Below are positions 136 to 56,782 of a stretch of 64,000 nucleotides of DNA, in pieces (the first letter of the stretch is position 1; each line of letters starts with the position of its first letter). The notes beneath the pieces are model-generated. The model saw only the letters and a list, made by a program, of their open reading frames with translations, ran no database searches and had not been told where the DNA came from. Position numbers and translations under genes: made by a program. Location: the NCBI GenBank assembly GCA_003024785.1, contig PUQB01000238.1, positions 112,193-176,192 of the forward strand. Direction: 5' to 3'. This stretch comes from Selaginella tamariscina (Eukaryota > Streptophyta > Lycopodiopsida > Selaginellales > Selaginellaceae).

Positions 136-160
136 GAGGATTGGCAAAAACCGGGCTCGT
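136..160 (+). repeat. MULE left terminal inverted repeat
   Basis: The first ~24 bases pair imperfectly with the reverse complement of 8103-8127. Shared blocks are GAG at the tip, then CAAAAA, then GGGCT. The outer edge is fixed by the target duplication at 128-135. Confidence 0.7.
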
Positions 161-193
161 ACAACGGGCTTTTGCATATTCCCGAATATCCAG

Positions 194-233
194 GAATATT
201 CTGTCAAATAAAAGGGAATATTCTAGAATATTC
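194..233. promoter_or_regulatory. Left subterminal GAATATTC palindromes (3 copies)
   Basis: Copies lie at 194-201, 216-223 and 226-233. Start-to-start spacings are 22 and 10 bp, counted inward from the left end. The right end repeats the pattern in mirror image. Subterminal repeats are commonly transposase binding sites; that role is inferred here. Confidence 0.6.
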
Positions 234-327
234 TGCCAAGTAGATTATCTTTAACTTTCAATAAAATGCCGACCAACAAGTGAAAAACGCTAATTATTTG
301 CCGACTAGACTTTACTATACCGACTAA

Positions 328-3300
328 TTAAAAGGTCGCAGGTTCGACATTGCGCTTGCAATCAACCAATAACCGATGCACTTCTGCTGGAGTAAGGGTC
401 CGCCTCTGTAAGAAGTAAGTAATCGTTGGGTCCAATCCAAGAACATGAGTGTACACAAAATACATGTGTTGGCAGGGGCTCCAGTTCTTGGCTTTCTGAA
501 AAGTTGCACAAGTGCATGACGGAACAGTAGAAATTGTTACCTTAGCAGATTGCATGCCTGCAGAGACAATGAAGGCCTCAGTCTTCCCTCTTTGAACCAC
601 CTCCACGTTGTTGATCCGACCTTGAAGAATCTTTGCCTGGTTGTAATGTTTCTCATGTTCCTTGGACATTCTTGTTGGTGTTCGCACACTCCGTCCATGG
701 TATGTTGGTACTCTATGTGCTCCCTCTCCTCTTGGTGGTGATGGTGTTCGATCCATTCGGCTACTACTGTCGTCTACCATTTCTTCAAATCCCTCCAACT
801 TGAATCCTGCTTTCAGAAGAGCTTCAACCTCATTTGCATTCAAGTTTGTTCCTTTTTGAACTGGCCAAACCTCTGGAACTTCTGGAATACTCTCAGGAGG
901 AATCCCTGCATATGGTCGTCTGAAGCAACAAGAATCGCGTGGGCAGAACCATAACATCTGATGAGTGAACTCAATGTTCCCAAATGCATTTGTATATTGC
1001 CGTCTACCGTGAAATCCTGGTGCCGGTACACGATGTGGATATCCTATGGGTCTGCCACACTTGCTGTTACCGTCCTGAGTGAGACCTAGACATTTCACCT
1101 GACTTGCCTCCCCAATGCGTCTGATGGCCCACTGAGTCATCAACGTCTCTCTTTCAGTGACATTGACATCTTGAAACTTGAGTTTTTTCCTGCGTGCATT
1201 TGGGATGACTTGTTCTGCATATTGTGTGTCATGTCTATGTGTACGAAGTGCATCAATCCCATGGTCCCCAGTTGACGGTTGACGAACGGTTCGAACACGA
1301 ACATTTGTTGTAGAGGCAAACTCTGGACTTGCAAGATGCTCTTCATCACTAACAAGATTTGCAAAAGTTGTTGGAGACACTGATTTTCCCGCTGAAAGTT
1401 TCTGCTGTGCACGTTTCAGAAGAGTTTCCATGGAAGGACCTGTGCCTGAATATCTCCCTTCAAATGATGCCTTGACCTTTGCACTTTGGAAAACAGCATC
1501 TGTTAAATCTAACATTGTTGCCTCCAACAAAGGAACACGCTTCGTCAGCCTTGCTCTTCGTGCTCTTGCATGAACAACTTCGGAGTTGTTAGTGGTAGGC
1601 ACATTCGCAACACCATCTTCTGTCAAGTCAATTATCTCTGTCATGGAAATATGATCTTCATGTCTTGCCCACCATGACAGCCATGTTTGCAAAGCGCTAA
1701 CGTTACTGGACCTGCCTTCCCAAAATGACTCCAACATTACTCGTCGTTCCAACTTATCTTGGTTGGTTAGTGCTGCAGGCCATGAGCGTGCAAGGTTCAT
1801 GTGCTCCTCCCTGTGTTCCTCAAGTATCCACTTCTTTGTAACTTGACGCACTGACTGCATGTAATGGAACAAACAACTCCTTTCTCTTCCTCTCATCTTT
1901 GACCCATTGTTGAAAACTTGACGCAATGCTAACCAAATTGCACCTGACTCATCTGACATGAACCCCGCAAAGTTCACATTATGAAGTCCTTGCTTGCTGC
2001 ACACTTGAAGCATAGTGTTCAAAAATTTGATCACCGCCACACTATCCTCCCTGATCATGTCACCATAAGCAAGTGTCACCATCGACCTTAAACTACACAA
2101 ACATAAGTGCATTATATTAGTAAGTATTTTAAAACATAGATATGTTAATACTTACAATGGATCATAGAGATGTATTCCCAGTGTACACCAATCATCAATA
2201 CGATATGTGTGGTCTAGCACCACCCACTGCTGTTCGAGATCACCTCCAGATTGACACCTTCTAATGTAGTCTATTCCGGATCCTGGGCCGGCAACCGTCA
2301 TTTTGAAGATTAAAGGCTGCTCTTCAGCTCCGTTGAGGTCCATTCCGGGTATGTGGATAACATGTATGAATGGGATTGATAGCTTCTTCTTTAACTGCAG
2401 AAGTCCTTCGTAACCTTCTTTGAAACGAGTGTCTCTTGTTCTAGCCTGAGATATCCATTCTCTTGTTCTACATGGAAAGGTTAAGCATCTCCAAAAGGAA
2501 ATAATAATTTTTTTGCTTACCGGCGGTGATTTGTGAGTGGTAGTAGATCTGACAGAACCTTGTCGTATGATACATCTCCAGAATCTGTTACCAGTTTTTC
2601 CAAAATTATATTGCGTGCTGCTTGAAACTCTATGACACGTTGATTAGTTCTTGGGGTTGCAGCGACTGCTTTGTTGATTGTCTCCTTAGCTCTGTCTTTA
2701 GAGACCATGGATTCGGGTGGTCTACGTGGGTGTTGATGTTCTCCAAGATGGATGAAAAGCCTCGTGCATGTGATATCATCTGGAATTATGTAATATGCAA
2801 CAACGGAGCATGTCTGCACTAGAAGGGGCTCATTGTTGCAATGCACACACTTCATTCCAAGCACTCTACCATCTGAAGATAACTGGACTTTATCAATGGT
2901 GCCCTTAAATTGGCAGTCATTTGCTTTCTTACTGAAGCTGATGAACGGACATGTTTCCTTTACGCATTTCATGTGGCCAATACATGAACTGCGACTAACA
3001 CGAGCTGGAACATTCCAATGTGTTGTGCAGCGTTGAGTCCAGTAATCACACCCATCCTTCCTATTCATCCCTTTGTACTTGTCCTTCATTGTTTCGTGTG
3101 CTGGCAACTCGTAAATCACATTTCCGTTGCAATCTTCTGGGACCTCAGCAACTTGCTGAATCGATGACGAGACCACCAGTTGCTTCCCAATCCTACATCT
3201 CTGACTATTGCGAAGTATTGTTACCATAGAATTGTCCCGATCTGTTGTCTCCAACCGGAATAGCGGTCCTTTGGAAGGAAGAAGTGTGTAATACACAAAA

Positions 3301-3500
3301 CTGCTAGCTCTTGCCCCTTCTGGTTCTACCTCAACATTCGCAGCATCTCCACCAACAACAGACATCAAATGCAGCACTTTAAAAGATTGCCAAGGTGGAA
3401 TGTCAAATGCAGACCTGAGATCTGTTTCAAAGACAAATGCAATACCATCTTCATCTGCAGGGAAGTCCTTGTCAACACCATTGTAGCTGATTCTTGCCAT
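328..3500 (-). CDS. MULE transposase with zinc-binding N-terminus and SWIM finger
   Basis: Three exons read to an unbroken 1018-residue protein: 3500-2521, 2467-2156 and 2092-328, with GT-AG introns of 53 and 63 nt. The start at 3500 (MARISYNG) is preferred over an upstream in-frame Met at 3542. The N-terminal third has many Cys/His residues (around 'SCIGHMKCVKETC' and 'LGEHQHP'), suggesting a WRKY/GCM1-like zinc fold. The core fits a Mutator-type DDE transposase: D412 in 'VVLDHTYRIDD', D478 in 'FMSDESGA', then 'CLFHYMQS' (the CxxH of MULEs), and E602 in 'TTNNSEVVHARA'. The C-terminus has a SWIM finger, C957-x-C959 ... C971-x-H973. It would cut and paste the element in the nucleus. The assignment to MULE is firm; the exact subfamily is not known. 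Confidence 0.88.
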
Positions 3501-3767
3501 GTAGCAAAAATGGAACAAACAAAAGTTAAAATTCAAAGACAATGAACATATTACACACGATGGTTAATGTGTTTGTTAGTCGTGAGGCAATCATTTCATT
3601 GACAAATATTAAAAATAATATTAATTGCGTGCGTCTGGGTAGAAGAGTGAAATTAATTTACTGCGTCTGGGTAGGTTTTTTGTAAATTAAAAAGTTTTAC
3701 TATGTACAAGTGGCGATCATGCATGCAATATGTTTACAGAAATTAGGTTGGTTTTTAATTGATTTAG

Positions 3768-3823
3768 GGCGGCTAGGGTTTTGCAATTAGGGCGGCTAGG
3801 GCAGCTAGGGCGGCTAGGTTTTC
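3768..3823 (+). repeat. GGCTAGGG-rich stretch, possible G-quadruplex
   Basis: At least five GGG runs occur within about 55 bases, in repeats of the form (a)gggcggcta. The spacing would permit a G-quadruplex on the plus strand, upstream of both genes. It resembles, but is not, plant telomere repeat (TTTAGGG). Confidence 0.45.
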
Positions 3824-4032
3824 GTGGAGCAGGGCTCATTTGGGGGCATAGCGTGGAGCAAGTGTGGCTCCAGGGATTAATCACAATAGGCTTCCATTGA
3901 GGGGGTGAGTATTTTCTGATTTCTTCATGATCTGCTCATGATCTTTTCATGATCTGTTCATCTTTTTACATCTCTTCACAGTTGCAAGAAATCCGGTCGG
4001 GCCTGCCGACTCGGACTGACTTCGTTGTCCGT

Positions 4033-4509
4033 CCCAGTCGGCAGGCCGACTGGGGTGGACTGTTCCAGATCCAGTCAACATTTTGACCGGGGTTGACTGT
4101 TCCAGCCCCAGTCAGCATTTTGACTAGGGTTGACTGTTCTAGTCCCACCTAGCATTTTGACTGGGCCTGTTCGTTCCCAGTCCAGACTGGGCCTCCCTTT
4201 GTGCCGTCCCAGTCGGCATGCCGACTGGGCCTCCCTTTGTTGCCAGTCCCAGTCGGCATGCCGACTGGGACTCCCTTTGATGCCAGTCCCAGTCGGCATG
4301 CCGACTGGGCCTCCCTTTGTTGCCAGCCCAGTCGGCATGCCGACTGGGACTCCCTTTGATGCCAGTCCCAGTCGGCATGCCGACTGGGACTCCCTTTGAT
4401 GCCAGCCCAGTCGGCATGCCGACTGGGCCTCCCTTTGATGCCAGCCCAGTCGGCATGCCGACTGGGACTTACAGCAACTGCTCTCTCAGTCGGCACGCCG
4501 ACTGTGAGG
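4033..4509. repeat. Palindrome array: seven identical 22-bp copies plus degenerate flanks
   Basis: The unit is CCCAGTCGGCA followed directly by its own reverse complement. Perfect copies start at 4208, 4248, 4288, 4327, 4367, 4406 and 4445, so they are spaced 39-40 bp (close to four helical turns). The spacers are near-constant (ctccctttgatgccag type). Degenerate relatives lie at 4033-4054 and ~4484-4509, with further half-similar units between 4080 and 4195. Each palindrome has two CpG sites. The copies are perfectly conserved while the spacers vary slightly. That argues for recent amplification or for selection on a binding site. Neighbouring genes encode a ParB-like/methyltransferase protein and a transposase, either of which could bind it. 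Confidence 0.9.
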
Positions 4510-4589
4510 GCTAGTATGTTTTTTTAATTTTTATTAAACATCTTTGAACATTTATTACAGTTTTTTGTTAAACCTTATTGCTTTTGTAG

Positions 4590-7500
4590 ATGCGCTCTTC
4601 ACAACGTTTACAAGAAAAGAAGATGAAGGAGCCTACTGAGAGAGAAGCAGAAGCTAGAGCTGCAATTCAGAGAGGGCGTCGGGGTCGTGGGAGAGGAAGT
4701 AGGAAGCTGGCTGTGGTTCAGGAACAAGGACCTTCAAGTGATGCTCCAGTTGAACAGGCAAGCCAGCAGGACTGGTCAGGAGAGCAAGAGGATGTAGTTC
4801 AACCCCAACAAGAACAATCAGACTTTGTTGAAGAAGTTGAGGATGATGTCTTACCACAGGAGACACAGGAGCAGACAGAAGGCACACAAGCCTCATGCGC
4901 AGTGACTTTGTCGAGTGACGAAGAGGATGAACCCAAGAGCAAGAAGAGACGACGCAAAGCTGCTGGAGATTCAGAGGCTGCTAAGAAGAAGAAGAAGGGG
5001 AAAGCAGAAGTGCCAGATAATGAGGAAGTTTACAACATTGCAGCCAGCATGCATTCGGAGAGTGCAGTGCGTCTTCTCGCGAAGATCACAATCCGAGAAT
5101 ATGGAGAGGCACCGGATGTCCCTATTTGCCGAATTCTGGGAAATGAGCAGGTGCGGAGAGTCAATCCAGCGGATCTGGAATCTTTGACTAGGAGTTTCAA
5201 GAAGGCAGTTGGTTATTTGCGCAACACCACTCAGTTCATCCTTCAAGTTGGGGACCCCATGACAGATGCAGATCTGGCAGCATTGAGAAGCGATGAAGCG
5301 ATGTATGCTCAGCATTTGGCTTTTGAGGAGGAGCTTCAGTCCGACATGTTCCGGCAATGGGCACCAATGCTTTCGATGAAGAAGTTCATCTGTTGGGATG
5401 GTAATCACAGGCTAAAGGTGCTTCAGAAGCTGTACACAGAAGACACGGAAGATAAGATTCAGTGGGCAGTGAGAGTGCGTTCAGGCTTCATCCGTGCTGG
5501 GGTCATGGATAATCTTCAGCTTGTGACAATGTTTCAGCAAATTAATAGGTAAACATAGTGACCTCTAGATCATAGGATTAACTAACTTCGAGCTTTTCAA
5601 ATATGCAGTTCCTCCGCAACGGCAGTGCAAACCACACTGCCACATCTTCTGCTATCTGTGAAGACATGTTGCACCAGTGAGGAGGGCACAGCGAAGATCT
5701 TGGCCAGGCTCAGTGACAAGGAACGAGATGACATAAGAAAGTGGAAGGAAAGCGCGACTGGACAACAAGCTTGGCATCCACTTCCGAATTTGATCTGTGC
5801 AAAGATTTTTTTGAGGTACCACGTCTCACACTTATTCACTTAGTTGATTACGTCTGTGAATTACAGAGTGAGATTGAGGATGATCTTGAGAAGGCTGCAA
5901 GGGCATCCAAAGGCAACAAATACCAGGAGCAACAACAGGTCTACATTAAGCATGACAAGCGCATGATGAAGATCTTAGCCATCATCGATCCTGCATTGGG
6001 TGAAGAGTGGTTCGACAAGGTGACCCAAATCACATGGAAACAATGCAGATGGATGGGGTTGGAAAAGCTGTACGCGCTTTCAAGGGCGAGAATTCCAAAC
6101 GAGACGAGAATCATGTACTTCAATAAACTGGTACGTCTCGATCTGAAGAGAGAGCAAGAGACACTTGGATTGCCGGGTGTTCAGGATAAGGAGTGGATAA
6201 GGTGGTTTACTATCGATTTGTATTGGCGGGCAATCAGAGAGGAGGCAGTACAGATTCTCACGGGACTCATCGAGGATGGCGAGTGGAGCAGGCCGGTTAC
6301 AGATTTCACGACTTGGTGCGATGAAGTGCGGGTAAAATGCAAGAACGTGATGTTCCAGCCATTCCATGAGTGTGTGAAGTTCACTTACTCCATAGAGCCG
6401 AAAGAGTTCCTCGAACACGAAGAGACAGCAAGAAGGATGATTTGGAGGTAAGGATGATCTTCTTGACATTGTTACATTCTGACACTACTATATGTTCATT
6501 ACAGGTATGTCGCAGCGAGAAAGGTGCCTCACACACAGACTATGGTATTCTGGTCAGATTACATGGAAGCACCACACATGTGGTCGAAGACAAGATCTGG
6601 CCTGACAGAGTTCGAGCGTGTACACGTACCGTTCTGGCTTGATTATCCACCTGGGCAACCACCAACATGGGAGAAGGATCTCTACAATGAACACTCAAAA
6701 GATCTCCCATGCATCTCATGGGATCCGGCAGAGGTCGACTTCATTAAGAAGACAAAGGCCAAGGCAAAGCGGCGTCAGCCTGTGCAGCAGTCAAAGAAGA
6801 CCTCAGATACAGTAGCTGGCACCTCCACTACTCGCGATCCAGCTGCCTTCTTCAATTTATCTGAAGTGCTACCATCGCAGGGAACCATGGACATCAAGGA
6901 TGACTTGGTCACATTCGTCCCTTCACTTGCTACAACTCGAGGTGATAATTTCTTGGCGATTGATGACATCGAGGAGATGCAACAGGCCGTGCTCACGGAT
7001 GAGAAGGAAGAGGAGGTTCCTGACGCTAGACTGGTTCCTTATAGAAAAGTTCAGACACAGGTGGCCAGGTACCATACAGCTGACAGCCAGACTCGCTACC
7101 AGCATATTGCGGGAGAATATGGTTTCAACTTGGTGATCTTCGACCTTCCAAATGGGACCTTGCCAGGAAATACAACGAGTGATACGCCATACCTCTACCT
7201 TGATCCAGTGAAGTTCGATGAAGCACTCCAGTTTGCAGGTATGCATATGGCTGCAAATGGTTGGTTGGTTGTGTTTGCTGCAGCAAACACCTGGGATCAA
7301 GTTGTCCGAGCTGCAAGTGTGGTGGACCTTCAACTTGCTGCAACGTACTACATCTACAGAGGGCGTGGTTGGGGCTACCGCAACAAGATGAAGGTACTTT
7401 TTTCTTTATTCATGAAGTTCATTAATGATTTTGATGTTTTAACAGGAGAGCATCCTGCTCCTTCTTGTCTTCCAAGATGCATCTAGAGGATTGCGCGATA

Positions 7501-7908
7501 ATCCACTGCGTTTGTCATCAACAATTCTTGTTGATAATCCTGAGCGGTTCCAAGAAGCATGGTAGGCATTTCATTTCAACAAATTAAGTATTTACCATTA
7601 TCTTCACATGCAGGATGGACTACCAACCGAAGAGCACTCGATTGATGCAGCTCGTGATAGAACGACTCACCCGGCCAGGTGATCTTATCTGGGATATAGG
7701 CAGTGGTACGGGGTCCTCAATGCTTGCAGCTATCGAGCTGGGGAGAAACATTGTTGGGACTGAGAAGAACCCTGAGCTCGGGAGAATTGCTATGAACAGG
7801 ATTAAAGAGAACATCCAGCCAGAGGAAATCCCAACCCAACCAATAGCGACGTCAAGTAGGACTGGTGGTTCACGAATTGCAGCATTGCTCAATCGTAAGA
7901 AGAAGTGA
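4590..7908 (+). CDS. ParB/sulfiredoxin-like domain fused to N4/N6-type DNA methyltransferase
   Basis: Six exons (4590-5548, 5609-5815, 5869-6447, 6505-7393, 7446-7561, 7614-7908) total 3045 nt with no break, giving 1014 residues. All five introns are 52-60 nt. The N-terminus is basic and acidic with likely nuclear signals ('RGRRGRGRGSRK', 'KSKKRRRK'). About residues 175-320 resemble a ParB/sulfiredoxin fold, with 'VPICRILGNEQVRR' and the signature 'CWDGNHRLKVL'. The C-terminal third is a methyltransferase with permuted order: motif IV-like 'VIFDLPNG' (D795-N798), then motif X-like 'QPKSTRLMQLVIERL', then SAM-binding motif I 'DLIWDIGSGTGS' (940-951) and 'GRNIVGTEKNPE'. The usual (D/S/N)PP(Y/F/W) is DLPN here, so activity is uncertain. 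The middle region is not recognised. Exon 3's acceptor (ending 5868) was chosen because it alone restores the frame. Confidence 0.85.
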
Positions 7909-8038
7909 CAAGTGTTGAATTGTACTCTTTGGTGTTGAAATAAAACTTTAATAATACAGTATAAACATGGCTATGATTAAATATTTTTTGTTGTTAATTG
8001 CCGACTGAGCCAAAATCCTAAATTCTAAGAATATTTAG

Positions 8039-8079
8039 GAATATTCTAAGAATATTCTGGTAGATTCTTTAGAATATTC
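8039..8079. promoter_or_regulatory. Right subterminal GAATATTC palindromes (3 copies)
   Basis: Copies lie at 8039-8046, 8050-8057 and 8072-8079. Read inward from the right end the spacings are 22 then 11 bp, mirroring 22 then 10 at the left end. The set sits 48-88 bp from the end. It is a probable transposase binding cluster. Confidence 0.6.
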
Positions 8080-8102
8080 CGGGTCCAAGCCCGGAAGCCC
8101 GG

Positions 8103-8127
8103 AAGCCCTCTTTTTGTCGGGGACTCT
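8103..8127 (-). repeat. MULE right terminal inverted repeat
   Basis: Imperfect inverse of 136-160. Just inside it, 8087-8107 holds short tandem repeats of gcccggaa. The outer edge is fixed by the right target duplication tgctctgt at 8128-8135. Confidence 0.7.
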
Positions 8128-8860
8128 TGCTCTGTCCAGCCCAATGCACTTCAAATAGCGGTTTCTCAATTGGAGATGGGTTTTGAACCAATAATAAGCG
8201 CTGCTGCACATCTCCGAATAAAGCTGAACCTACAAGTCCATCAAGGTGTGACTCAGATGGTCAATGCTGACACTTCACTACATATGGCAAGGACTCTTGC
8301 TGTAGGGTTATTTTCTGCAAGGTCTTTGGCAATCCGAATCACTGTTGCACCTGCAAACATCCTTGTTGGTAGATGACACTGGTTTTTCCCACTCTTTAAT
8401 TGCATTGCTAGCTGCGTCCTTTGCCAATTTAAAAAACTTCTCGAATTGCAATTTCTTGAACGTTGATTCAAGAATGTTCCCGTGTAATTGCACATTTTAG
8501 GGTTCTCTTCGGTCAAGTAGAAGTGCCTCTTTCTGATATGTGAGTTATCACCTGAATATATGCAAAATGCTACGATGTCTTTCATTTAAAGAAGATTTAA
8601 AACTATACTAGTGTTAAAAAATAACGATTGTTGTTATAATAAGTGAATTAATAAATAGAAGTGATGTAAAATCATAAATTGTTTAGATTTATGAATTAAA
8701 GACACAAACAATAATTTATATTAAAAGATATAAAAAGTAGACCTAGTGTAAGCATATTTATTAAGTGTATATGCATATTATAGCTTCAGTTTGTCATTGC
8801 AATTGGTGACATTAAAGAAAAAATCAGGATAATTACATTGTAGAAACTACATTGTAGCAA
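8128..8860 (-). pseudogene. Chalcone-synthase-like copy A, 5' part
   Basis: This is the remainder of the gene broken by the MULE, on the minus strand. Exon 2 (about 8585 to 8128) reads 'KRHFYLTEE', 'MCNY', '[12 protein letters not shown]' and 'LIIGSNP'-type segments of type III polyketide synthases. Roughly 115 bases are missing at about 8370-8380. That removes the catalytic-cysteine block present in copy C as '[12 protein letters not shown]'. An AT-rich intron (about 8590-8790) matches those of copies B and C, and a short exon-1 remnant follows to ~8850. The gene was therefore disabled by a deletion as well as by the transposon. Confidence 0.85.
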
Positions 8861-10439: not shown

Positions 10440-11661
10440 CTTATGAATTAATGTTACTGTCCTTCCAAATGAGTTTTTACAATGTAATTATCCCTAATTG
10501 CAATGACAAACTGAAGCTATAATATGCATATACACTTAGGTCTACTTTTTATATCTTTTAATATAAATTACTGTTTGTGTCTTTTATTCATAAATCTAAA
10601 CAAGTTATGATTTACATCACTTCTATTTATTAATTCACTTACTATAAACAATAATTATTTTTTAACACAGTATAATTTTAAATTTTCTTTAAATGAAAGA
10701 TAGATAACTCACTAAAGAGATTTTAAAAAGCAAACCCTAAAATGTGCAATTACAGGGAACATCCTTGAATCAACGTCAAGAAATTGCAAATTCAAGAAAG
10801 TTCCAAAGTTGGCAAAGGAGCAGATATCAATGCAATTAAAGAGTGGGAAAAACCAGTGTCATGCATAACACATCTTGTGTTTTACACAACACGTGGAGTT
10901 GACATGCCTGGTGCAGATTTCCAACTCATAAAGCTCCTTGGATTGCCTCTTGATGTTAAGCGTGGTCTGCTCTACCAACAAGGATGTTTTTTTCAGGTGC
11001 AACAGTGATTCGGATTGCCAAAGACCTTGCAGAAAATAACCCTACAGCAAGAGTCCCTTGCCATATGTAGTGAAGTGTCACCAATTGACGTTTGAGCACC
11101 ATCTGAGTCGCACCTTGATGGACTTGTAGGTTCAGCTTTATTCGGAGATGGTGCAGCAGCGCTTATTATTGGTTCAAACCCATCTCCAATTGAGAAACCT
11201 CTATTTGAAGTGCATTGGGCTGGACAGAGCATTACCCCAGACAGTGACAATGCCATTCTTGGCCAAGCTGGATTGATCTTTCACCTACTGAAGGATGTAC
11301 CACTCATCTCAACAAATATAGAGAAAATTTTGGTCAAGCCACTTCAATATATTACAGCATTTGATAACAATAAGCAAACATTGAGCTATAACGATTTGTT
11401 TTGGGTTGTGAATCCTGGGGAGCAGCAATACTGGATCAAGTGGAGACAAAGCTCTTGCTTAAACAAGGATCGGCATGCAAGCAACTCGAGATGTTCTTGC
11501 AGATTACGGCAACAATGTCAAGTGCTTCAGTTTTGTTTGTCCCCGATCAGATGCGAAAGCGTTCCATTGAGCTTAATGAGGAGACAACTGGAGATGGCCT
11601 GTTATGCTCACTTTTGGTCCAGGGCTTACTATTTGAAAGCCTCGTCCCTGAGAGCGCTTGA
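10440..11661 (+). pseudogene. Chalcone-synthase-like copy B, active-site residues lost
   Basis: A short exon-1 remnant (~10455-10515), an AT-rich intron and exon 2 (~10710-11661) align with copy C. The active-site cysteine block reads '[12 protein letters not shown]', so the catalytic Cys of type III polyketide synthases is Tyr. The catalytic His block reads 'FWVVNPGE', so His is Asn. Several indels break the frame and exon 1 is largely deleted. The C-terminal text ends in 'ESLVPESA' before the stop at 11659. These are substitutions, not homopolymer slips, so this copy is convincingly dead. Confidence 0.85.
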
Positions 11662-11929
11662 ACTTCATCAAATCAAATAATTACATATTTGTGTGAGATG
11701 AAAATTATACATAAACCTTCAAGGTGTTCAATAATATGATAGTTACTTTTCATCCTTGTCTTTAATGTTTTATACATGTGATCTATATCAAATTCATATA
11801 TTGATGAGTTACTGATTTGTATTTATGCCATGACATATGTTTTTTAGTATGTTTATGGTTTTGAAGATGGTTTTTTATGCTTTTTAAACATGGTTTATAC
11901 GTTTAATATGGTGTCAACAATTACAAGGA
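11662..11929. other. AT-rich downstream flank of copy B
   Basis: It resembles the flank after copy C (18930-19150; shared 'aaaccttcaaggtgttcaataa'). No gene is seen. Confidence 0.5.
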
Positions 11930-24300: not shown

Positions 24301-26219
24301 ATGGATTCATTGTACAGATTTCTCATGTTCTTATGCATTTGTCTTGCGACTGCTACTTTGTGCTGGTGCTCGACCACCACGGCGTGGTGTGTCACTGTTT
24401 GCCTCATGAATCGTGCTTCCCAAGTCCATTCGCATGGAGTTTCCTCAACCATACACTAAATGGTCGCCTTCTCCAACTCAGGTGTGTGTGTGTGTGTGTG
24501 TGACTTATAACACAATCTATGCAGGCCTCTAGCTTATCCATGTCATAATCCGAATTATGATGAGGTTAAATGCAATCTCATAAAGGAGAACGCAGGAGAT
24601 GCATTATGGAGGTCCGGTCAACCAAGTGCAATACAACACCCACTCTGGGAAACCTACCACAACTACACTTGTTTTCTTAATTTCCCAAAGAACACCACTT
24701 GTGCGCAAGGCTCCGTGCCTCTCTACGCAGTTCAAGTTGAAGAAGCAAATGATGTATCTAAAGCATTCGAGTTTGCTTATCATAACAACATTCGTCTTGT
24801 AGTGAAAAACACTGGTCACGACGCACTTGGACGTGAAATGGGTATGCCATCTCTGCCTCTCTCTTATACAAAATGACTAAGAAATATATGTACACTATGA
24901 AGGTGTGGGATCTCTTATGTTGTGGACACACAAGCTCAAAAAGATGGAGTTCCACGAGTCATTTGTTCCAAACAATTGTCATGTCGAGAAGGGAGTACCA
25001 GCAGTCACAATAGGAGCAGGCGTGCAGTGGGACGAGGTCTACTCCGCAGCTGACAAACTAAACAGATCAGTTGTGGGTGCATACAGTAGAACCGTGGGTG
25101 CTTCAGGTGGTTACATCCTTGGTGGTGGCCATAGTATCCTTACCCCTTCTTACGGGTTTGCTGTTGACAACGTGCTCCAGCTTGAGGTGTGTGAGCGTGT
25201 GAGTGTGTGTATTGTATCTTATTTATGGGATTTTTCTATAGTTGGTCACACCAGATGGGAAATACAAAGTGGCCAACAAGTGTCAGAACAAGGAGCTTTA
25301 CTGGGCACTTTTGGGTGGAGGTGGTAGCACTTTCGGTGTGGTTTTGAGTTCCACGCACAAAACTCACTCTTCAGTGCCCATAGTCCAGATGATGATTAAC
25401 ATATCTGTTAACAAGACATCTGACATGTTACATGTTTTCTATGGTCTAGGAATGATGCAGTCGTCCTTGTCATTGAAGCATTGGGGAGGAACATTCAAAG
25501 CTAACCCTGCTGGGGTACGGATCGATTACATCCTTCCCAATGGAACAGCTTCCGATGCAGAATCCGACTGGTCTGACTTTGTATCAGAGGTGAAGATGAT
25601 GCCTGCTCTCCAGGTGACGCAGGAGATTACCACGTACACTTCATTCTACCCGTGGTTCGAGTCTGCCATGTGCCAGCATTTCCCTGATACATGTACCGAC
25701 CACGGCGGCTCAAATGAAGTGCTGGCTTCCAGGCTTATTCCAGAGACAATATTAATGAACTCGACTAGTGTTCTTGAGCTTGCGTCTGCAATTATTGAGG
25801 TTCTCAGTAGGAACTCAAGCAACGGAGCTGGGAATGCAATATTGGGAATGGCAGTGGGAAAAAGTCCCTCTAACGAGACATGTGTGGAGAATGCACTGAA
25901 TCCTGCTTGGAGGAAGTCTCTCTGGCACGTTATAATATCTGCATTATGGCAAGATGGTGCCTCAGATGTGGAAATGAAGCATAAGCTCGAGGATGTCACG
26001 GAAACCAACAAGTTGTTTGTTAATGTCACACCTGACTCTGGGGCTTACATGAATGAGGCAGACTACAACGAGCCAAACTGGAGAGAGTCATTCTACGGTA
26101 GCCACTACCCGAGGTTGCTAGATATCAAGAGGAGTGTGGATCCTACACACTTGCTAGCTTGCCATCACTGCGTTGGAAGTGAGGTATGGGATGAAGACTT
26201 CGTTTGCAGGAACTGCTAG
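24301..26219 (+). CDS. Secreted FAD-linked oxidase (BBE/PCMH family, fungal-like)
   Basis: Four exons (24301-24481, 24525-24841, 24903-25186, 25242-26219) with introns of 43, 61 and 55 nt give about 585 residues. The start has a hydrophobic signal peptide ('FLMFLCICLATATL'). The FAD-binding domain shows 'LVVKNTGHDALGR', 'VGAYSRTVGASGGYILGGGHS' and 'ALLGGGGSTFGVV'. The C-terminus carries 'NEPNWRESFYGSHYPRLL', typical of the berberine-bridge family. These enzymes oxidise alcohols, sugars or alkaloids using bound flavin. The opening 'CHCLPHESCFPSPFAW' and the motif order recall fungal members more than plant BBE-like proteins. One flaw: two extra bases (tg) in 'cgtggtgtgtcac' near 24389 put the signal peptide out of frame with the rest. 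Confidence 0.8.
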
Positions 26220-32150: not shown

Positions 32151-33249
32151 TCAAATTTAAAAAAGTGAAGACCAGATGAATTAGTGCCGAGTGAACCTCT
32201 TGATGATACTCCCGAAAGAAAGACAGAGGGGTTACTAATTTACTTGCATGAGGACCCTCCTCTACTCGTGCGATTCGTCATTTCCTAGAAGATTTGCATC
32301 AAGACCTTCCACTACCTGTAGCGATGCCAATAGGACGTTATTGACTAGGGCCTCCACACCAGAAAATGGGGACGCCAATTCGAAAATTGTTGATAGTGCC
32401 AATAAGTGTGTCCAACCTCATCACACGCCCAACAACAAATTGCACATCCACATCCTCATTACTAGTACACAAGCAGTGACAAACATCATCGGAGCAGGAC
32501 CATCCCCAACATGAAGTGAAATGAGAAAACGTGAAGATGCAAGTGAGAAAAGTGATGACTCATCAAGAGTCACTAAAGCCATGTGTACAGCTACATACTG
32601 TTATTATAGCATAGTGGGATTGTGATAGCCATTGGATTATTTCAATATGGACTACTGGCTCCTATATATAAACTAAGGTTTTGGGTAATATAATATACAC
32701 ACTTTTATATTCCAAGCTCTCGTAGTTTAAAATTAAATCATAAACATTCAAATTAAAAAATATCAAAATTTAAAAACTTACATTTTAGACTTACATTTTA
32801 AATTGAAAATAAAAAACTAATCTTATTAATGTGGTAATGAATTTACTAATGTTGATTTTATCTTAATTCTTCAGGTAATAAATTTGTTATTTGCTTTTGC
32901 TCCTAGTTAATGTAATTTTTCTTTGTGTTAATCTCTTTATGATAATATTCTATATTATGTTTATTAAACAGCAAAGCATATTTAAGCTGTAAAATACAAA
33001 GATTACTTTTAAAATTATAATTATTTATTTATAGCAAAACTCAATTCAATGGCTTTCTGAATGCACTTAATAGTAAAATGTATATAATAATCCTAGAGTT
33101 TTTCATGTTCACCGGCGTGCTTTAAACATTAGCATTATGAAGATATTAACAAATGCTTTTCATTGTATCTCTTTTTTACACATAAACCAATCTCGGAACA
33201 ACAGAGCATCTGTGTTTATCTCTTACGAGTTCAAAAGCCCTAAAAGAAT
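32151..33249. other. Spacer between gypsy relic and PPR gene
   Basis: No gene is seen. 32620-32690 ('cctatatataaactaagg') looks like an LTR-type promoter, perhaps the worn LTR of the neighbouring gypsy element. The rest is AT-rich. Confidence 0.4.
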
Positions 33250-35130
33250 ATGCTGTGGCAAAATGGCGGGAATACAACAAAGCCGGGGCTGGATCACGCA
33301 GCATGCCTGGAGACGATAAACTCATGCAAGAACCTCTCTACACTAAGAAACGCACACAAAAGAGTCGCGCACTTGCTCAACTCCCACATATACCTCACAA
33401 ACAGGCTACTAGAGATGTACGGCAAATGCGGCAGCACGCAAGACGCACGCTCCATCTTCGACGCCACGAACAAGAACATATACACATGGTCACTCATGGA
33501 GTCTGCGTATGTACGTAATGGCCATCTGCAAGACGCCAAAGCAATCTTTGATGCAATGCCCCAGAGAGACCTCATTGCGTGGACCACACTCTTAGTTGCA
33601 TACGCCCAGAGAGGCAATCTCCTGGAGGCTGAGAAACTCTTTGACGGCATGCCCGAGTGGGATTTGATATCATGGAATGCTACGCTCACTGCATATGCCC
33701 AGAATGGGCATTTGTATCGAGCGAAAGAGGTTTTTGACAACATGCAGGAGAGGGATATCGTGTCGTGGAACGCGATGCTTGCAGCGTATTCCAGAACAAG
33801 CATATTACTCAAGCACACAGCTTGTTCAACTCGATGCCTGCGAGAGACTTGCTCTCGTTTAACACGCTGTTATCGGCTTACTGTCAGGAGGGGGACATAG
33901 AGCTTGCCAAGAAAGTGTTTGATGGAATGCAGGAGAGGAACGAAGCCCCTGCACAACACTTGTTGTGGCATTTGCCGAACAGGGCTGCTTACACTTTGCT
34001 GAGCGTGTGTATGAGCGTATGCAGGAACATGGACTGTATTCTTGCAATGCAATGCTGACTGCATATGCGCGTAACGGGCATCTCCGACAAGCCAGGCGTG
34101 TGTTCGATAGCATGTACGAGCGGAACGTCATCTCCTGGAACGCGATGCTTACGGCATGCATCGAAAACGGTGACATAGACGAGGCCAGGTTGGTTTTCCA
34201 GAGAATGGAGGTGCACACGCTTGTGTCGTGGAATGCTATGCTGGCTGCGTACGTGCACAGCGGGAGAGTAAGCGAGGCTGTGGATGTTTTCCGGCAGATG
34301 CCCGACAGAGACCTCGTGTCGTGGAATGCGATGCTGTCAATGCACGCATGGAACGGACAAGTGGAGAAGGCCAAGGAGGTGTACGAAAGGCTCCAGCAGA
34401 AAGATATCGTTTCATCTACTGCAATGCTCACTGTGTATGCCCAGAATGGGCATCTCGACGAAGCCAAGCAGGTGTTTGATCGGATGCCCCGAGGGACATG
34501 GTGTCGTGGAATGCGATGCTGTCGGGATATGCACAGAATGGATACGTCGACACGCCAAGTTCATGTTCGACACGTTACTCGTCAAGGATCTTGTAAGCTA
34601 CAATGCGTTGCTGGCTGCATATGCCCAGAACGGACATCTCGGCAAGGCACGTGGTGTGTTCGACGGGATGCTGGAGACGGATATCATATCGTGGAATGGG
34701 ATGCTGGCTGGGTACTCGCAAAATGGGGATCCTCGGGAAGCACTGGAGCTGTTTTATGCGATGAAGACGTACGTGTTACCGGATGAGATTAGTTTCGGGT
34801 GTGCTTTAGGCGCGTGTAGTCGCGCAGGGATGTGTATGTGGGCAGGTCGCTGTTTGTGTCTATGCAAATGGACTACGGATTGAGAGCGAACAAGCAGAAC
34901 TACTGCTGCTTGGTCGACCTCCTTGCGCGTGCAAGGTATCTCAGGGAATCCGAGGAACTTATAATGAATATGCCGTATGTGCCCGATGAGTTTGACTGGA
35001 CGTGTTTGCTCTCGTCGTGTGAAAACCATAAGGATGTGGATAGAAGCGCGAGGGCGAGTGAGAATGTGTTGGGTTTGGACCCACGGAATACTGCGGCTTT
35101 TTGTGTTGCTTGCCAATACATACACCACAG
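33250..35130 (+). pseudogene. Pentatricopeptide-repeat protein with frame breaks
   Basis: An intronless array of about 14 or more PPR repeats, nearly all ~31 residues ('WNAMLAAYAQNGHLxxAKxVFDxM' pattern), the S-type seen in many organelle-targeted PPR proteins. PPR proteins bind single-stranded RNA in mitochondria or chloroplasts and direct editing, splicing or stability. The C-terminal part ('FDWTCLLSSCENHKDV', 'ENVLGLDPRNTAAF') is an E-like extension. No DYW deaminase domain follows. The frame shifts near 33793, 33945, 34487, 34835 and 35100, yet the repeat code continues seamlessly in the next frame each time. Either a young pseudogene or a real gene carrying sequence errors. Confidence 0.75.
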
Positions 35131-47136: not shown

Positions 47137-48226
47137 ATGGATGGTCTCGGTGGGAAGAGAAAACAAGAAGCAACAAAAGAAGGTGAGATCGTGAAGAAGA
47201 AAACAAAGGGAGGGAGTGAAAGTGAAGAAGTAAATATAGAAGAACTTACGAAGGCATTACCACACTAGACATGTTGAATCCAATGGAATTACACCGCTGC
47301 TATTTCTTCTACGGTGTACCCAGTCACAATAAGATGGTGAAGAAATATCTGAACAATCGATGGTATGGAATGGCACACATGATGTTAAATGATACAAAGA
47401 GCGACGCAGAGACTTACCGCATGATTATATTTGAGACGCCCTTGAATAAACCAAAATCCGAATTTGGTGACTCCCACTATATCATACTTTCCAGAGTTCT
47501 ACAGAAGATGAAACAATTGGGCTTTCCATGTAGTATGGAGTTGTTCGAGAAGCTGATCTTACATTCTAATGATGATGTAGTTACTGAGCAACTTTACAAG
47601 GATATGGTTAGAGAGTGCAGTGGCACAGTCAAGCCCCAAGTGTATGGAGCAGTTTTGAATGCTATAGTTAATAGGGATTTAGAAGAAGCTATTAAGTTTG
47701 TTGGGTTAATTCTTGTGACAAGGGTATTAAGTTCGATGTGTCTAGTCTTGTCAAGCGCTTGCACACGATAATAGAATAAAAGATATCGAGCATATTCTAA
47801 AGGCTATTGGTGGATGTGAACCAGTGTTCATTAAGGAACTAGTCAAGAGCGGTGATAGGGTTGAGACGTGGGACTACGCATGTAACCTTGTGTAAGAGAG
47901 CGCAAAGTCAAAATTGCCCAAAACAGAACAACTTTTAAAGGCATTTGTGAGCAGCATTTGGGGCATAAGAAGTCACTTTCATAGGTCATCCCTCGTGATA
48001 TATGGCGGCTGCACATATTGGAAAGGTGCTTTGGCATTGTGATGATAATTGGAAAGGTGCTTGACAAAGAAACATGTGTTCTCATCGCAGCTGCGCTACA
48101 GAAAGTTGACAAGGAAGAAGAGGCCATGTTCATGTTTCAGTGTGGAGTCTGTGAGCCACGTATAGAGAATTAAACGATTTGAGAGAATGGGCGAGCTCCA
48201 TAATGCTATTACAAATTGTCCATTTT
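47137..48226 (+). pseudogene. Tandem F-box-like gene, copy 1 (dead)
   Basis: Same gene as at 49963, starting 'MDGLGGKRKQ'. About 20 bases are missing after 'KALPH' (near 47264), which breaks the frame. Further damage includes altered bases around 47715 and 47765, and a stop in place of Tyr at about 47894. The coding part and upstream flank are clearly more diverged than in copies 2-4, while the downstream spacer is nearly identical to theirs. That pattern fits unequal exchange after the copy died. Confidence 0.85.
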
Positions 48227-49844
48227 GATGTTGTATAATTTCGATGTCACAATTTACTATGACACTAAAATTATGTTGTAAAATAAAAAACCACCATTAG
48301 TGAGAGATAAAGATAATTATTTTTCTTAATTAAAAAGAGTTTAAAATACAGATTATTACATATAATTTATGTATATAAATTTACAATACATTTCCTTATA
48401 AATTATGTAAGGACTATGAAATTATGTAAGGCCCTCGTGAACAAATGTGTACTTTGTCAAAATTAATAGAAAAAATGGTGCTTCATAAACCACTAATGGA
48501 TGATGAAATATTAAAAATATTAAATAACACGTTTTATAGGTTATAAATTAAGATGAATAGTAAAATTTAAAAGAAAAAAAAGAAAAGAAAATTCATTCAT
48601 TGGAAATTTGTTATTAGTGAAGACCTTTAACTCAATTGTTATATATAAGCTGGATGTTTAACCCATTTGTTATTCTTAACCTCGTGAATTTATTTCTGAG
48701 CTGAATCTTTAACTCAGTAGGTTTATGCTTAAGTTTTTAGATTTATCCATTTTTGAGCTTAACTATTTAATGAACCTGAACCCAATTGTTAGTTTTAATA
48801 CAATGAGTTTATTCCTAAGCTAGAACCTTAACCTTAATCTTATCCTTTTAAGCTCTTATGCATGAAATGAAGTGCAATTTATACCCTTAGGCTTAATTGT
48901 AACTATTTAATGAACCTTAACACTATTGGTGAGTTATTCCTAATTGGACCTTTAGCCTAAGGTATTATTTTAATCTAGTGATTTACCATTAACCCAATTG
49001 TTATTTTTATTATAATGAGTTTATCTCTAATCACCCATGCCACACATGATAATGCATGACTCATGCATGGTCTAACTACCTCAATTGTGCCATGTGGATT
49101 TAGGATTATGATGGTTTTTGGTGAGCTTAACTATTTAATAATAATTTACTTTGTACTTAATTGTTATTTTTCACTTGATGAGTAATGCGGTTGTTATGCT
49201 TAACTATCAAAATTGAGTTGGATTCATAACTCACTTAATCTATCGAGTTTCGGATAAATATTCGAATTGAATTTAACATAATTATCGGATGATATTTAAG
49301 ATTACCGTAATATGAAATTTACAATGTGTTGGAATTTAGGGTAGCTATTGAATAAAATTAGGATGGCCATTGAAGAGGTGTTCAAAATAAAATTTAGGAT
49401 GGCACACATACGGTTTAGGCTGGATTGAATTTTAGGATAACATGGAATGTAATTTAGCATAACTGTCCAATGAAATTTAAAAAGGGTCGTTATTACAAAC
49501 AAACACGCATAGTGATGACATATATATGTATTTATGTATGTATTCCTTTTCAATCTCAACCGTCTAATCCACGATAAGGTGATAACTCTATATAGCTGTT
49601 TTGAGCTTAAAGTAAAATGCATTTTTATATGTAATTGTTAAAATACACTAAACATATGCATGAAAATTCATATAAAAATATTTAATTATGAAATCTTCAT
49701 ATAAGCCAATGAGAGTTTGCTATGTTAGTAATGAAAATTTTCTACAAAATTATACGGCGTGAGTTACATGTGGTAAAATATAACATGTCATATGCATGGA
49801 AAAACAACGTGTTCACACGCGACATGCGTGCGTGGAATATGCAA
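48227..49844. repeat. Spacer of the tandem unit, with internal degenerate repeats
   Basis: The ~1.7-kb spacer recurs at 51079-52700 and 53934-55550, almost unchanged. Inside it, phrases such as 'tttaactcaattgtta', 'tttaacccatttgtta' and 'gaacccaattgttag' repeat with intervals of roughly 50-130 bases, a worn internal repeat. No open gene is seen. Confidence 0.7.
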
Positions 49845-49853
49845 GTATATAAG
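49845..49853 (+). promoter_or_regulatory. TATA box of tandem copy 2
   Basis: gtatataag lies 110 bases before the ATG at 49963. The identical box precedes copy 3 (52700-52708). In copy 4 it has lost a T (gtaataag, 55551-55558). Confidence 0.6.
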
Positions 49854-49962
49854 AAACATGGGTGAGTAATCCTAGGTCACGAGCGAGTAAGGGTTCCTAA
49901 CTATTGTTCGAGTGTTTTGGTTTACTATTGATATCATACGGTGAACTTATTAAGGGTTACTC

Positions 49963-51078
49963 ATGGGTGGTCTCGGTGGGAAGAGAAAACAAGAAGCAAC
50001 AAAAGAAGGTGAGATCGTGAAGAAGAAAACAAAGGGAGGGAGTGAAAGCGAGGAAGTAAATATAGGAGAACTTACGAAGGCATTACCACATGATATAAGG
50101 GAAAATATACTAGACATGTTGAATCCAATGGAATTACACCGCTGCTATTTTTTCTACGGTGTACCCAGTCACAATGAGATGGTGAAGAAATATCTGAACA
50201 ATCGATGGTATGGAATGGCACACATGATGTTAAATGATACAAAGAGCGACGCAGAGACTTACCGCATGGTTATAGTTGAGACGCCCTTGAATAAACCAAA
50301 ATCTGAATTTGGTGACTCCCACTATGTCATACTTTCGAGAGCTCTAGAGAAGATGAAACAATTGAGCTTTCCACGTAGTATGGAGTTGTTCGAGAAGCTG
50401 ATCTTACATTCTAATGATGATGTAGTTACTGAGCAACTTTACAAGGATATGGTTAGAGAGTGCAGTGGCACAGTCAAGCCCCAAGTGTATGGAGCAGTTT
50501 TGAATGCTATAGTTAATAGGGATTTAGAAGAAGCTATTAAGTTTGTTGGGTTAATTCTTGTCGATAAGGGTATTAAGTTCGATGTGTCTAGTCTTGTCAA
50601 GCGGCTTGCACGTGAGAATAGAATAAAAGATATCGAGCATATTCTAAAGGCTATTGGTGGATGTGAACCAGTGTTCATTAAGGAACTAGTCAAGAGCGGT
50701 GATAGGGTTGAGACGTGGGACTACGCATATAACCTCGTGTACGAGAGCGCAAAGTCAAAATTGCCCAAAACAGAACAACTTTTAAAGGCATTTGTGAGCA
50801 GCATTTGGGGCATAAGAAGTCACTTTCATAGGTCATCCCCTCGTGATATATGGCGGCTGCACATATTGGAAAGGTGCTTTGGCATTGTGATGATAATTGG
50901 AAAGGTGCCTGACAAAGAAACATGTGTTCCCATCGCAGCTGCGCTACAGAAAGTTGACAAGGAAGAAGAGGCCATGTTCATGTTTCAGTGTGGAGTCTGT
51001 GAGCCACGTATAGAGAATTATAATGATTTGAGAGAATGGGCGAGCTCCATAATCGCTATTACAAATTGTCCATTTTGA
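49963..51078 (+). CDS. Unrecognised 371-residue F-box-like protein, tandem copy 2
   Basis: A single open exon of 371 residues. I do not recognise the family. The N-terminus is lysine-rich with a likely nuclear signal ('KRKQEATKEGEIVKKKTK'). Residues ~40-65 read 'LPHDIRENILDMLNPMEL', resembling the start of an F-box (a Skp1-binding motif). The rest is predicted mostly helical; 'PQVYGAVLNAIVNRDLEEA' is faintly PPR- or helical-repeat-like. No catalytic motif or membrane segment is visible. It encodes exactly the same protein as copy 3. A TATA box lies 110 bases upstream. It could be an F-box adaptor, but that is inference. Confidence 0.8.
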   Translation: MGGLGGKRKQEATKEGEIVKKKTKGGSESEEVNIGELTKALPHDIRENILDMLNPMELHRCYFFYGVPSHNEMVKKYLNNRWYGMAHMMLNDTKSDAETYRMVIVETPLNKPKSEFGDSHYVILSRALEKMKQLSFPRSMELFEKLILHSNDDVVTEQLYKDMVRECSGTVKPQVYGAVLNAIVNRDLEEAIKFVGLILVDKGIKFDVSSLVKRLARENRIKDIEHILKAIGGCEPVFIKELVKSGDRVETWDYAYNLVYESAKSKLPKTEQLLKAFVSSIWGIRSHFHRSSPRDIWRLHILERCFGIVMIIGKVPDKETCVPIAAALQKVDKEEEAMFMFQCGVCEPRIENYNDLREWASSIIAITNCPF

Positions 51079-52817
51079 TGTTGTATAATTTCGATGTCAC
51101 AATTTACTATGACACTAAAATTATGTTGTAAAATAAAAAACCACCATTAGTGAGAGATAAAGATAATTATTTTTCTTAATTAAAAAGAGTTTAAAATACA
51201 GATTATTACATATAATTTATGTATATAAATTTACAATACATTTCCTTATAAATTATTGTAAGGACTATGAAATTATGTAAGGCCCTCGTGAACAAATGTG
51301 TACTTTGTTCAAAATTAATAGAAAAAATGGTGCTTCATAAACCATTAATGGATTGATGAAATATTAAAAATATTAAATAACACGTTTTATAGGTTATAAA
51401 TTAAGATGAATAGTAAAATTTAAAAGAAAAAAAGAAAAAGAAAATCATTCATTGAAAATTTGTTATTAGTGAAGACCTTTTAACTCAATTGTTATATATA
51501 AGCTGGATGTTTAACCCATTTGTTATTTTAACCTCGTGAATTTATTTCTGAGCTGAATCTTTAACTCAGTAGGTTTATGCTTAAGTTTTTAGATTTATCC
51601 ATTTTTGAGCTTAACTATTTAATGAACCTGAACCCAATTGTTAGTTTTAATACAATGAGTTTATTCCTAAGCTAGAACCTTAACCTTAATCTTATCCTTT
51701 TAAGCTCTTATGCATGAAATGAAGTGCAATTTATACCCTTAGGCTTAATTGTAACTATTTAATGAACCTTAACACTATTGGTGAGTTATTCCTAATTGGA
51801 CCTTTAGCCTAGGTATTATTTTTAATCTAGTGAGTTTACCATTAACCCAATTGTTATCCTTATTATAATGAGTTTATCTCTAATCACCCATGCCACACAT
51901 GATAATGCATGACTCATGCATGGTCTAACTACCTCAATTGTGCCATGTGGATTTAGGATTATGATGGTTTTTGGTGAGCTTAACTATTTAATAATAATTT
52001 ACTTTGTACTTAGTTGTTATTTTTCACTTGATGAGTAATGCGGTTGTTATGTTTAACTATCAAAATTGAGTTGGATTCATAACCCACCTTAATCTATCGA
52101 GTTTCGGATAAATATCGAATTGAATTTAACATAATTATCGAATGATATTTAAGATTACGTAATATGAAATTTACAATGTGTTGGAATTTAGGGTAGCTAT
52201 TGAATAAAATTAGGATGGCCATTGAAGAGGTGTTCAAAATAAAATTTAGGATGGCACACATACGGTTTAGGCTGGATTGAATTTTAGGATAACAGTGGAA
52301 TGTAAATTAGCATAACTGTCCAATGAAATTTAAAAAGGGTCGTTATTACAAACAAACACGCATAGTGATGACATATATATGTATTTATGTATGTATTCCT
52401 TTTCAATCTCAACCGTCTAATCCACGATAAGGTGATAACTCTATATAGCTGTTTTGAGCTTAAAGTAAAATGTATTTTTATATGTAATTGTTAAAATACA
52501 CTAAACATATGCATGAAAATTCATATAAAAATATTTAATTATGAAATCTTCATATAAGCCAATGAGAGTTTTGCTATGTTAGTAATGAAAATTTTCTACA
52601 AAATTATACGGCGTGAGTTACATGTGGTAAAATATAACATGTCATATGCATGGAAAAAACAACGTGTTCACACGCGACATGCGTGCGTGGAATATGCAAG
52701 TATATAAGAAACATGGGTGAGTAATCCTAGGTCACGAGCGAGTAAGGGTTCCTAACTATTGTTCGAGTGTTTTGGTTTACTATTGATATCATACGGTGAA
52801 CTTATTAAGGGTTACTC

Positions 52818-55667: not shown

Positions 55668-56782
55668 ATGGGTGGTCTCGGTGGAAGAGAAAACAAGAAG
55701 CAACAAAAGAAGGTGAGATCGTGAAGAAGAAAACAAAGGGAGGGAGTGAAAGCGAGGAAGTAAATATAGGAGAACTTACGAAGGCATTACCACATGATAT
55801 AAGGGAAAATATACTAGACATGTTGAATCCAATGGAATTACACCGCTGCTATTTTTTCTACGGTTGTACCCAGTCACAATGAGATGGTGAAGAAATATCT
55901 GAACAATCGATGGTATGGAATGGCACACATGATGTTAAATGATACAAAGAGCGACGCAGAGACTTACCGCATGGTTATAGTTGAGACGCCCTTGAATAAA
56001 CCAAAATCTGAATTTGGTGACTCCCACTATGTCATACTTTCGAGAGCTCTAGAGAAGATGAAACAATTGAGCTTTCCACGTAGTATGGAGTTGTTCGAGA
56101 AGCTGATCTTACATTCTAATGATGATGTAGTTACTGAGCAACTTTACAAGGATATGGTTAGAGAGTGCAGTGGCACAGTCAAGCCCCAAGTGTATGGAGC
56201 AGTTTTGAATGCTATAGTTAATAGGGATTTAGAAGAAGCTATTAAGTTTGTTGGGTTAATTCTTGTCGATAAGGGTATTAAGTTCGATGTGTCTAGTCTT
56301 GTCAAGCGGCTTGCACGTGAGATAGAATAAAAGATATCGAGCATATTCTAAAGGCTATTGGTGGATGTGAACCAGTGTTCATTAAGGAACTAGTCAAGAG
56401 CGGTGATAGGGTTGAGACGTGGGACTACGCATATAACCTCGTGTACGAGAGCGCAAAGTCAAAATTGCCCAAAACAGAACAACTTTTAAAGGCATTTGTG
56501 AGCAGCATTTGGGGCATAAGAAGTCACTTTCATAGGTCATCCCCTCGTGATATATGGCGGCTGCACATATTGGAAAGGTGCTTTGGCATTGTGATGATAA
56601 TTGGAAAGGTGCCTGACAAAGAAACATGTGTTCCCATCGCAGCTGCGCTACAGAAAGTTGACAAGGAAGAAGAGGCCATGTTCATGTTTCAGTGTGGAGT
56701 CTGTGAGCCACGTATAGAGAATTATAATGATTTGAGAGAATGGGCGAGCTCCATAATCGCTATTACAAATTGTCCATTTTGA
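55668..56782 (+). pseudogene. Tandem F-box-like gene, copy 4 (three frame breaks)
   Basis: Nearly identical to copies 2 and 3 but with one G missing after 'MGGLG' (ggtggaag, ~55681), one T inserted (cggttgtaccc, ~55864) and one A missing (gagatagaa, ~56322). The TATA box is also one base shorter. All are single-base length changes, so sequence error is possible. The match to the unit stops at about 57035, where the downstream spacer is replaced by other DNA. Confidence 0.8.

Follow-up and report, generated by a model that had tools for sequence, protein, structure and literature searches.

A MULE-like transposon of Selaginella tamariscina with a second gene whose product may recognise the element's own palindromes

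Why would a DNA transposon of a land plant carry a gene that ends in a bacterial-type methyltransferase half? The question is raised by a stretch of 64,000 nucleotides of the Selaginella tamariscina assembly GCA_003024785.1 (contig PUQB01000238.1, positions 112,193 to 176,192; hereafter the window, whose own coordinates are used throughout), in which a preliminary description had reported a Mutator-like element (MULE) carrying a ParB-like/DNA methyltransferase gene. The stretch contains a complete MULE-like transposon, in which a transposase gene and an accessory (cargo) gene lie on opposite strands and diverge from a central palindrome array. The reading that we favour, with a confidence slightly short of even, is that of an autonomous Mutator-like family whose accessory protein recognises the family's own palindromes and, bound to them in cis and trans, preserves the element's capacity for expression or transposition. 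The element is delimited by the following features.

127–135, unstranded: left copy of the target site duplication (TSD), ATGCTCTGT (9-bp TSD in other copies and match to the empty-site paralogue)
136–8126, unstranded: complete MULE-like DNA transposon, 7,991 bp (ends defined from other loci)
136–160, unstranded: left terminus, a short imperfect inverted repeat, starting GAGGATTGGCAAAAACCGGGCT (alignment of the two ends)
8102–8126, unstranded: right terminus, whose reverse complement starts GAGTCCCCGACAAAAAGAGGGCT (alignment of the two ends)
8127–8135, unstranded: right copy of the TSD, TTGCTCTGT, with one mismatch

The duplication, previously given as 8 bp, is actually 9 bp long with one mismatch between its copies, and the element accordingly ends at 8126; the inverted ends described earlier are present, but they are short and imperfect rather than closely matching. 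Across 24 loci (the window and 23 further loci fetched from the assembly), the 9-bp TSD was exact in 13, carried one mismatch in 3 (including the window), was not found in 7 and could not be examined in 1. At one of the seven (L020), the fetched stretch stops within the duplication, and the visible bases agree. The insertion target was a chalcone-synthase-like gene with an uninterrupted paralogue 3 kb away, which is colinear across the insertion point (approximately 10971–11354) and represents the empty site; since it runs uninterrupted through that point, it provides independent proof of insertion. The chalcone/stilbene-synthase-like sequence of this unbroken paralogue occupies 10971–11680 as a whole.

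A DNA search of the same 300.7-Mb assembly with cargo exon 1 (960-bp query), in which the best 40 of 224 candidates were scored, retrieved at least 40 near-identical copies of the exon, 19 of which (window included) were identical over the full 960 bp; the element family is thus not a chance resemblance. Copies lacking the cargo gene are uncountable by this route, and the apparent conservation of exon 1 is biased upward. The search for further copies with both genes, proposed in the preliminary description, was fruitful: both divergent genes were spanned without a large deletion in 20 of the 23 fetched loci, among them L009, where a contig end removes no more than the first bases. A deletion of approximately 70 bp lies within the cargo gene of L017, a contig end cuts L024 inside the cargo gene, and L012 has lost the centre of its transposase gene and shows no match past element position 7367. 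The median pairwise coding divergence was 0.2% (171 pairs among 19 rows of the alignment, L012 and L024 excluded), and the fetched copies represent one very recent burst.

Two further observations concern individual loci. The loss in L012 amounts to 1,861 bp but spares the array and the greater part of the cargo gene, so that this locus is possibly a non-autonomous derivative. The same insertion site and duplication occur on different contigs in L015 and L025 and, separately, in L009, L021 and L024, which points either to duplication of segments or to haplotypes left unmerged by the assembly.

The transposase gene lies on the minus strand in three exons.

2521–3500, minus strand: transposase exon 1, start codon at 3500 (GT-AG splice, open frame)
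2156–2467, minus strand: transposase exon 2, first catalytic Asp (residue 412, LDHTY)
328–2092, minus strand: transposase exon 3, second Asp (residue 478, MSDESG), CxxH (504–507) and C-terminal SWIM-like zinc motif (957–973)

In the window copy, these exons form an unbroken frame of 1018 codons. The two Asp residues are separated by 66 residues (D412 and D478) and are followed by CxxH and the C-terminal CxC...CxH motif. This D-D-CxxH-SWIM order appears to be laid out as in MULE transposases. The Pfam SWIM match was below the curated cut-off (E 0.026), and the MULE transposase profile of Pfam gave no match either to the whole protein at E up to 1 or to the catalytic part at E up to 10. Published MULEs have duplications of 8–11 bp, a range that includes the 9 bp found here, and some have no terminal inverted repeats (PMC6446971). 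The catalytic layout and the duplication together give good but not complete support for a MULE assignment, and because the family profile did not match, we call the element MULE-like rather than a filed member; the DDE/SWIM transposase of MULE type described earlier is probable from its layout but was not confirmed by profile.

The accessory gene consists of six GT-AG exons on the plus strand, opposite to the transposase.

4590–5548, plus strand: cargo exon 1, encoding the charged N-terminal part and, at residues 269–275, the ParB-like motif WDGNHRL
5609–5815, plus strand: cargo exon 2, frameshifted by 1 bp in the window copy when compared with the majority of copies
5867–6447, plus strand: cargo exon 3 (the window frame closes only with a start at 5869)
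6505–7393, plus strand: cargo exon 4, motif IV equivalent FDLPNG (residue 795)
7446–7561, plus strand: cargo exon 5
7614–7908, plus strand: cargo exon 6, methyltransferase motif X/I, DIGSGTG, the half that binds S-adenosylmethionine (SAM) (Pfam N6_N4_Mtase E 6.6e-9; phrog_67 E 2.4e-11)

The majority reading of 18 rows comprises 1015 codons. The window copy carries a 1-bp deletion in exon 2, shared with L026 alone among the 20 other aligned loci, and its frame closes as 1014 amino acids only through an acceptor two bases downstream of that implied by most copies. Of the two genes formerly reported as complete and unbroken, the transposase is indeed so, whereas the cargo gene is not simply so. 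Both majority frames are open, with no new stop among 35 (cargo) and 55 (transposase) distinct substitutions in 18 rows (window included; L009, L012 and L024 excluded). The nonsynonymous/synonymous ratios were 1.5 and 2.67, compared with 3.39 and 3.29 by opportunity, for cargo and transposase, respectively, although these are small numbers and some of the substitutions are clustered at misaligned indels. The excess of small indels between copies was considered as a sign of biological decay and set aside, since host tandem duplicates in the window show a similarly gap-rich pattern (3.2 kb with 11 mismatches and 17 gap openings). Noise in the assembly would be a simpler, if unproved, explanation and may account for part of the frame damage.

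The methyltransferase assignment concerns the C-terminus of the protein. The Pfam family N6_N4_Mtase (PF01555) matched residues 922–977 of the 1014-residue reading (36.5 bits against a cut-off of 26.7), and no other Pfam family matched the protein above its cut-off. The PHROGs match was to a DNA methyltransferase family, the nearest solved structures were MboIIA and DpnA (E 0.003–0.004), and an hhalign comparison with phage adenine methyltransferases gave a probability of 98.3 over 62 columns. All these matches cover the motif X/I half only, and judged by these profiles the C-terminus is the SAM-binding half of an N4/N6 amino-methyltransferase. The catalytic motif IV, [D/N/S]PP[Y/F/W], is absent and replaced by DLPN, in which Asn stands for the usual aromatic residue, the one that normally stacks on the flipped base. 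DLPN was present in 22 of the 23 fetched loci, the remaining locus being cut off before motif IV. In eleven phage enzymes, fetched from 13 matching phage records and aligned by MAFFT, the corresponding place (not aligned by hhalign) is occupied by DPPY in eight, DIPY in two and DLPY in one. The N4/N6-type methyltransferase of the preliminary description thus holds for the SAM-binding half, and its enzyme activity appears doubtful because DLPN lacks the usual aromatic residue; a working methyltransferase is possible but is not to be assumed.

The candidate target of the accessory protein lies in the non-coding DNA, between the genes and near the ends.

194–233, unstranded: left subterminal group of three GAATATTC palindromes
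300–306, unstranded: left subterminal copy of the array half-site GCCGACT
4048–4165, unstranded: first tandem array, 37-bp period, diverged palindromes (Tandem Repeats Finder, TRF)
4185–4508, unstranded: main array, 40-bp units with the palindrome (CCCA)GTCGGCATGCCGAC(TGGG) and a diverged last unit (TRF 4185–4466; last unit by motif position 4489)
8000–8006, unstranded: right subterminal copy of the array half-site GCCGACT
8039–8079, unstranded: right subterminal group of three GAATATTC palindromes

Both arrays are situated between the start codons of the two genes (3500 and 4590). In 20 of 21 rows, each element contains the main-array palindrome 5–11 times as an exact 14-mer; the remaining row, L012, read zero only because its deletion shifted the slice, and its array is present. 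Taken as a single strand, the DNA of part of the array shows strong folding (z −17), as palindromes would lead one to expect. The GAATATTC palindrome occurs six times in the two 200-bp ends, compared with 0.016 expected in resampled ends, and is absent from the interior. Outside the arrays, the half-site GCCGACT occurs only at 300 and 8000, one per end; in 2000 first-order resampled pairs of 200-bp ends, two occurrences were never reached (mean 0.013). The GTCGGCATGCCGAC palindrome with half-sites near both ends is therefore a plausible candidate for a self-recognition site. A splice-acceptor-like sequence, TTTTGTAG, seen by eye immediately 5' of the cargo ATG (4582–4589), suggests an intron in the 5' untranslated region; if so, the palindrome array would sit either inside this intron or within the promoter.

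In the reading that we favour, the family would encode a MULE-type transposase and, on the opposite strand, an accessory protein with a charged N-terminus, followed by a ParB-like segment and, C-terminally, a fold of beta-class amino-methyltransferase type. The protein's targets would be the array that separates the start codons and the half-site close to each end; through sequence-specific binding there, in cis as well as in trans, the element would remain able to be expressed or to transpose, as VANDAL elements do through VANC. Self-recognition, which the layout of genes and sites suggests, could have two outcomes, namely VANC-like relief of silencing or help in transposition. DNA binding by the ParB-like segment, recognition of the array and an effect on silencing are inferred. 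The altered motif IV points to binding, or else to an enzyme activity that is weak or changed, and protection that needs no methyl transfer is rated most likely because motif I is mostly kept while motif IV is altered.

Several results weigh against this proposal. The ParB-like assignment comes from one motif, WDGNHRL, spotted by eye; the ParB/Srx domain formerly proposed drew no profile or sequence support, with nothing ParB-like in Pfam, PHROGs, the PDB or, by tblastn, phages, and the sole PDB match for this part was an unrelated chance hit (E 0.76). A single-sequence AlphaFold2 model of the ParB-like part of exon 1 was unusable (mean predicted local distance difference test score 43) and was discarded. 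The half-site test was run after the sites had been seen, though the motif was derived from the array. Motif I (DIGSGTG) was readable in 18 of 23 loci. Among 21 rows (L040–L042 excluded), the cargo frame was open in only five (L010, L013, L014, L020 and L028), the transposase frame in three (window, L010 and L014) and both in two (L010 and L014), of which L014 has a change inside methyltransferase motif I. Finally, because the fetched copies derive from one recent burst, the array, half-sites and motifs are present in them but not thereby conserved, and their presence is not evidence of conservation between lineages. As for the distribution of the proteins, searches of a 5.8-billion set found no relative of either protein (7,995 and 5,285 candidates sharing most words were scored), and an IMG/VR search with exon 1 found none; this is weak evidence of rarity, as the plant share of these sets is not established.

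Against the same evidence, the cargo protein might be an active N4-cytosine or N6-adenine methyltransferase that marks element DNA and thereby blocks or redirects host silencing by 5-methylcytosine. The match of its C-terminal half to N6_N4_Mtase and to phage adenine methyltransferases would fit such an enzyme, a changed second position of motif IV is evidently tolerated in the three phage enzymes with DIPY or DLPY, and bacterial-type N4-methylcytosine enzymes act in bdelloid rotifers (PMC8885841) and Marchantia sperm (PMC8566409). However, the aromatic residue of motif IV is replaced by Asn at every locus where it is readable, and changing both Ser and Tyr of SPPY to Ala abolishes the activity of the rotifer enzyme N4CMT (PMC8885841), so that we regard an active enzyme as rather unlikely. 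We also think it unlikely that a bacterial-type ParB-methyltransferase has turned into a catalytically dead, parS-like self-recognition factor that shields all copies of the family from silencing by binding the array and the ends, a convergence on VANC built from phage-type parts.

Instead of any epigenetic role, the protein may have a direct one in transposition, in which its DNA-binding part would clamp the ends or pair them. The half-sites at both ends, besides those of the array, would suit this role. So would the behaviour of ParB proteins, which load onto palindromic parS sites; they do so as clamps (PMC12704722). Most of the palindromes, however, lie between the two start codons, a regulator's place, rather than at the ends, and the ParB fold is unconfirmed, which leaves a purely transpositional role improbable. 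That the gene is a functionless passenger, captured and carried along, is the least probable of these explanations and, in our estimation, very unlikely. MULEs often pick up pieces of host genes (PMC6446971), and 16 of 21 rows, a truncated one included, have a broken cargo frame, although indels may be assembly noise; yet breaks are commoner still (18 of 21) in the transposase frame, on which the family depends, the majority cargo frame stays open over six exons with substitutions that add no stop and a nonsynonymous/synonymous ratio below opportunity, and a like architecture has been reported in algal transposons (PMC12477816).

The remainder of the window contains other features. Tandem copies of a 374-residue gene without a Pfam match at E 1e-3 occupy 47226–56782; two of these copies (49954–51078 and 52809–53933) are identical in DNA, and the surrounding repeat differs mostly by small gaps. 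A PPR-repeat gene region across several frames (33244–34883) is possibly a pseudogene or the result of frame errors. Open frames resembling a berberine bridge enzyme (25242–26219, Pfam BBE) and a Ty3-like retrotransposon gag (62139–62987) were also observed. The chalcone-synthase, PPR and berberine-bridge-type genes mark the host as a land plant.

In the phage N6-adenine methyltransferases, as in the cargo protein, motif IV precedes motif X/I, the matched C-terminal stretches are 30–44% identical (13 records), and Pseudomonas phage Lucjan, whose enzyme is annotated as group beta, has DLPYGT where the cargo protein has DLPNGT. Unlike the cargo protein, the eleven fetched phage enzymes are approximately 210–380 residues long and keep the aromatic residue. 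Fusions of the ParB-CTPase fold with N6_N4 domains are frequent in phages according to a survey of that fold, the main text of which has no words starting with plant or transpos (PMC12704722). The bdelloid N4CMT and Marchantia MpDN4MT1a/b are bacterial-type amino-methyltransferases at work in eukaryotes (PMC8885841, PMC8566409); they are described as host genes, with SPPY in N4CMT, whereas the present gene is transposon-borne and has DLPN.

VANDAL elements with VANC resemble the present family in several respects (PMC6446971, PMC13317346): the transposase is of MULE type, the TSD is 9 bp long, terminal repeats are weak or lacking, an additional gene is carried, and the non-coding DNA contains short repeated motifs that might be the target of its product. 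In the present family, the additional gene matches only N6_N4_Mtase above the Pfam cut-off, VANC being compared by description. A close parallel is Sola1-1_Ec32 of Ectocarpus, in which a gene for a ParB and N4/N6-methyltransferase protein lies on the strand opposite the transposase (PMC12477816). Both DNA transposons carry an accessory protein of approximately 1,000 residues (1104 there and 1015 here) with a similar make-up, as compared by description rather than by sequence, but the algal one is a 21.5-kb Sola1 element of a brown alga and the present one an 8-kb MULE-like element of a land plant. The same paper cites similar genes in green and red algal transposons (Iyer 2011; Petroll 2025) and already puts forward the idea that proteins of this kind bind the element that encodes them and modify it; it alone describes such a transposon gene among the literature matches listed, which came from full texts, with most subscription papers outside their scope, and include no report of a ParB-methyltransferase cargo in a MULE or a land plant. 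ParB and N4/N6-methyltransferase cargo in algal transposons is thus already published, and the MULE-like setting, the land-plant host, the palindrome array and the DLPN motif are new as far as searched. With dozens of young and nearly identical copies in one genome, and with a candidate target site defined, the proposal is directly testable, and the altered catalytic motif frames a sharp question, whether the protein writes a mark or only binds. Should the accessory protein act on the element that encodes it, the same bacterial parts would have been taken up by different transposon superfamilies, in algae and in land plants, and self-marking with such parts would be a recurring transposon strategy.

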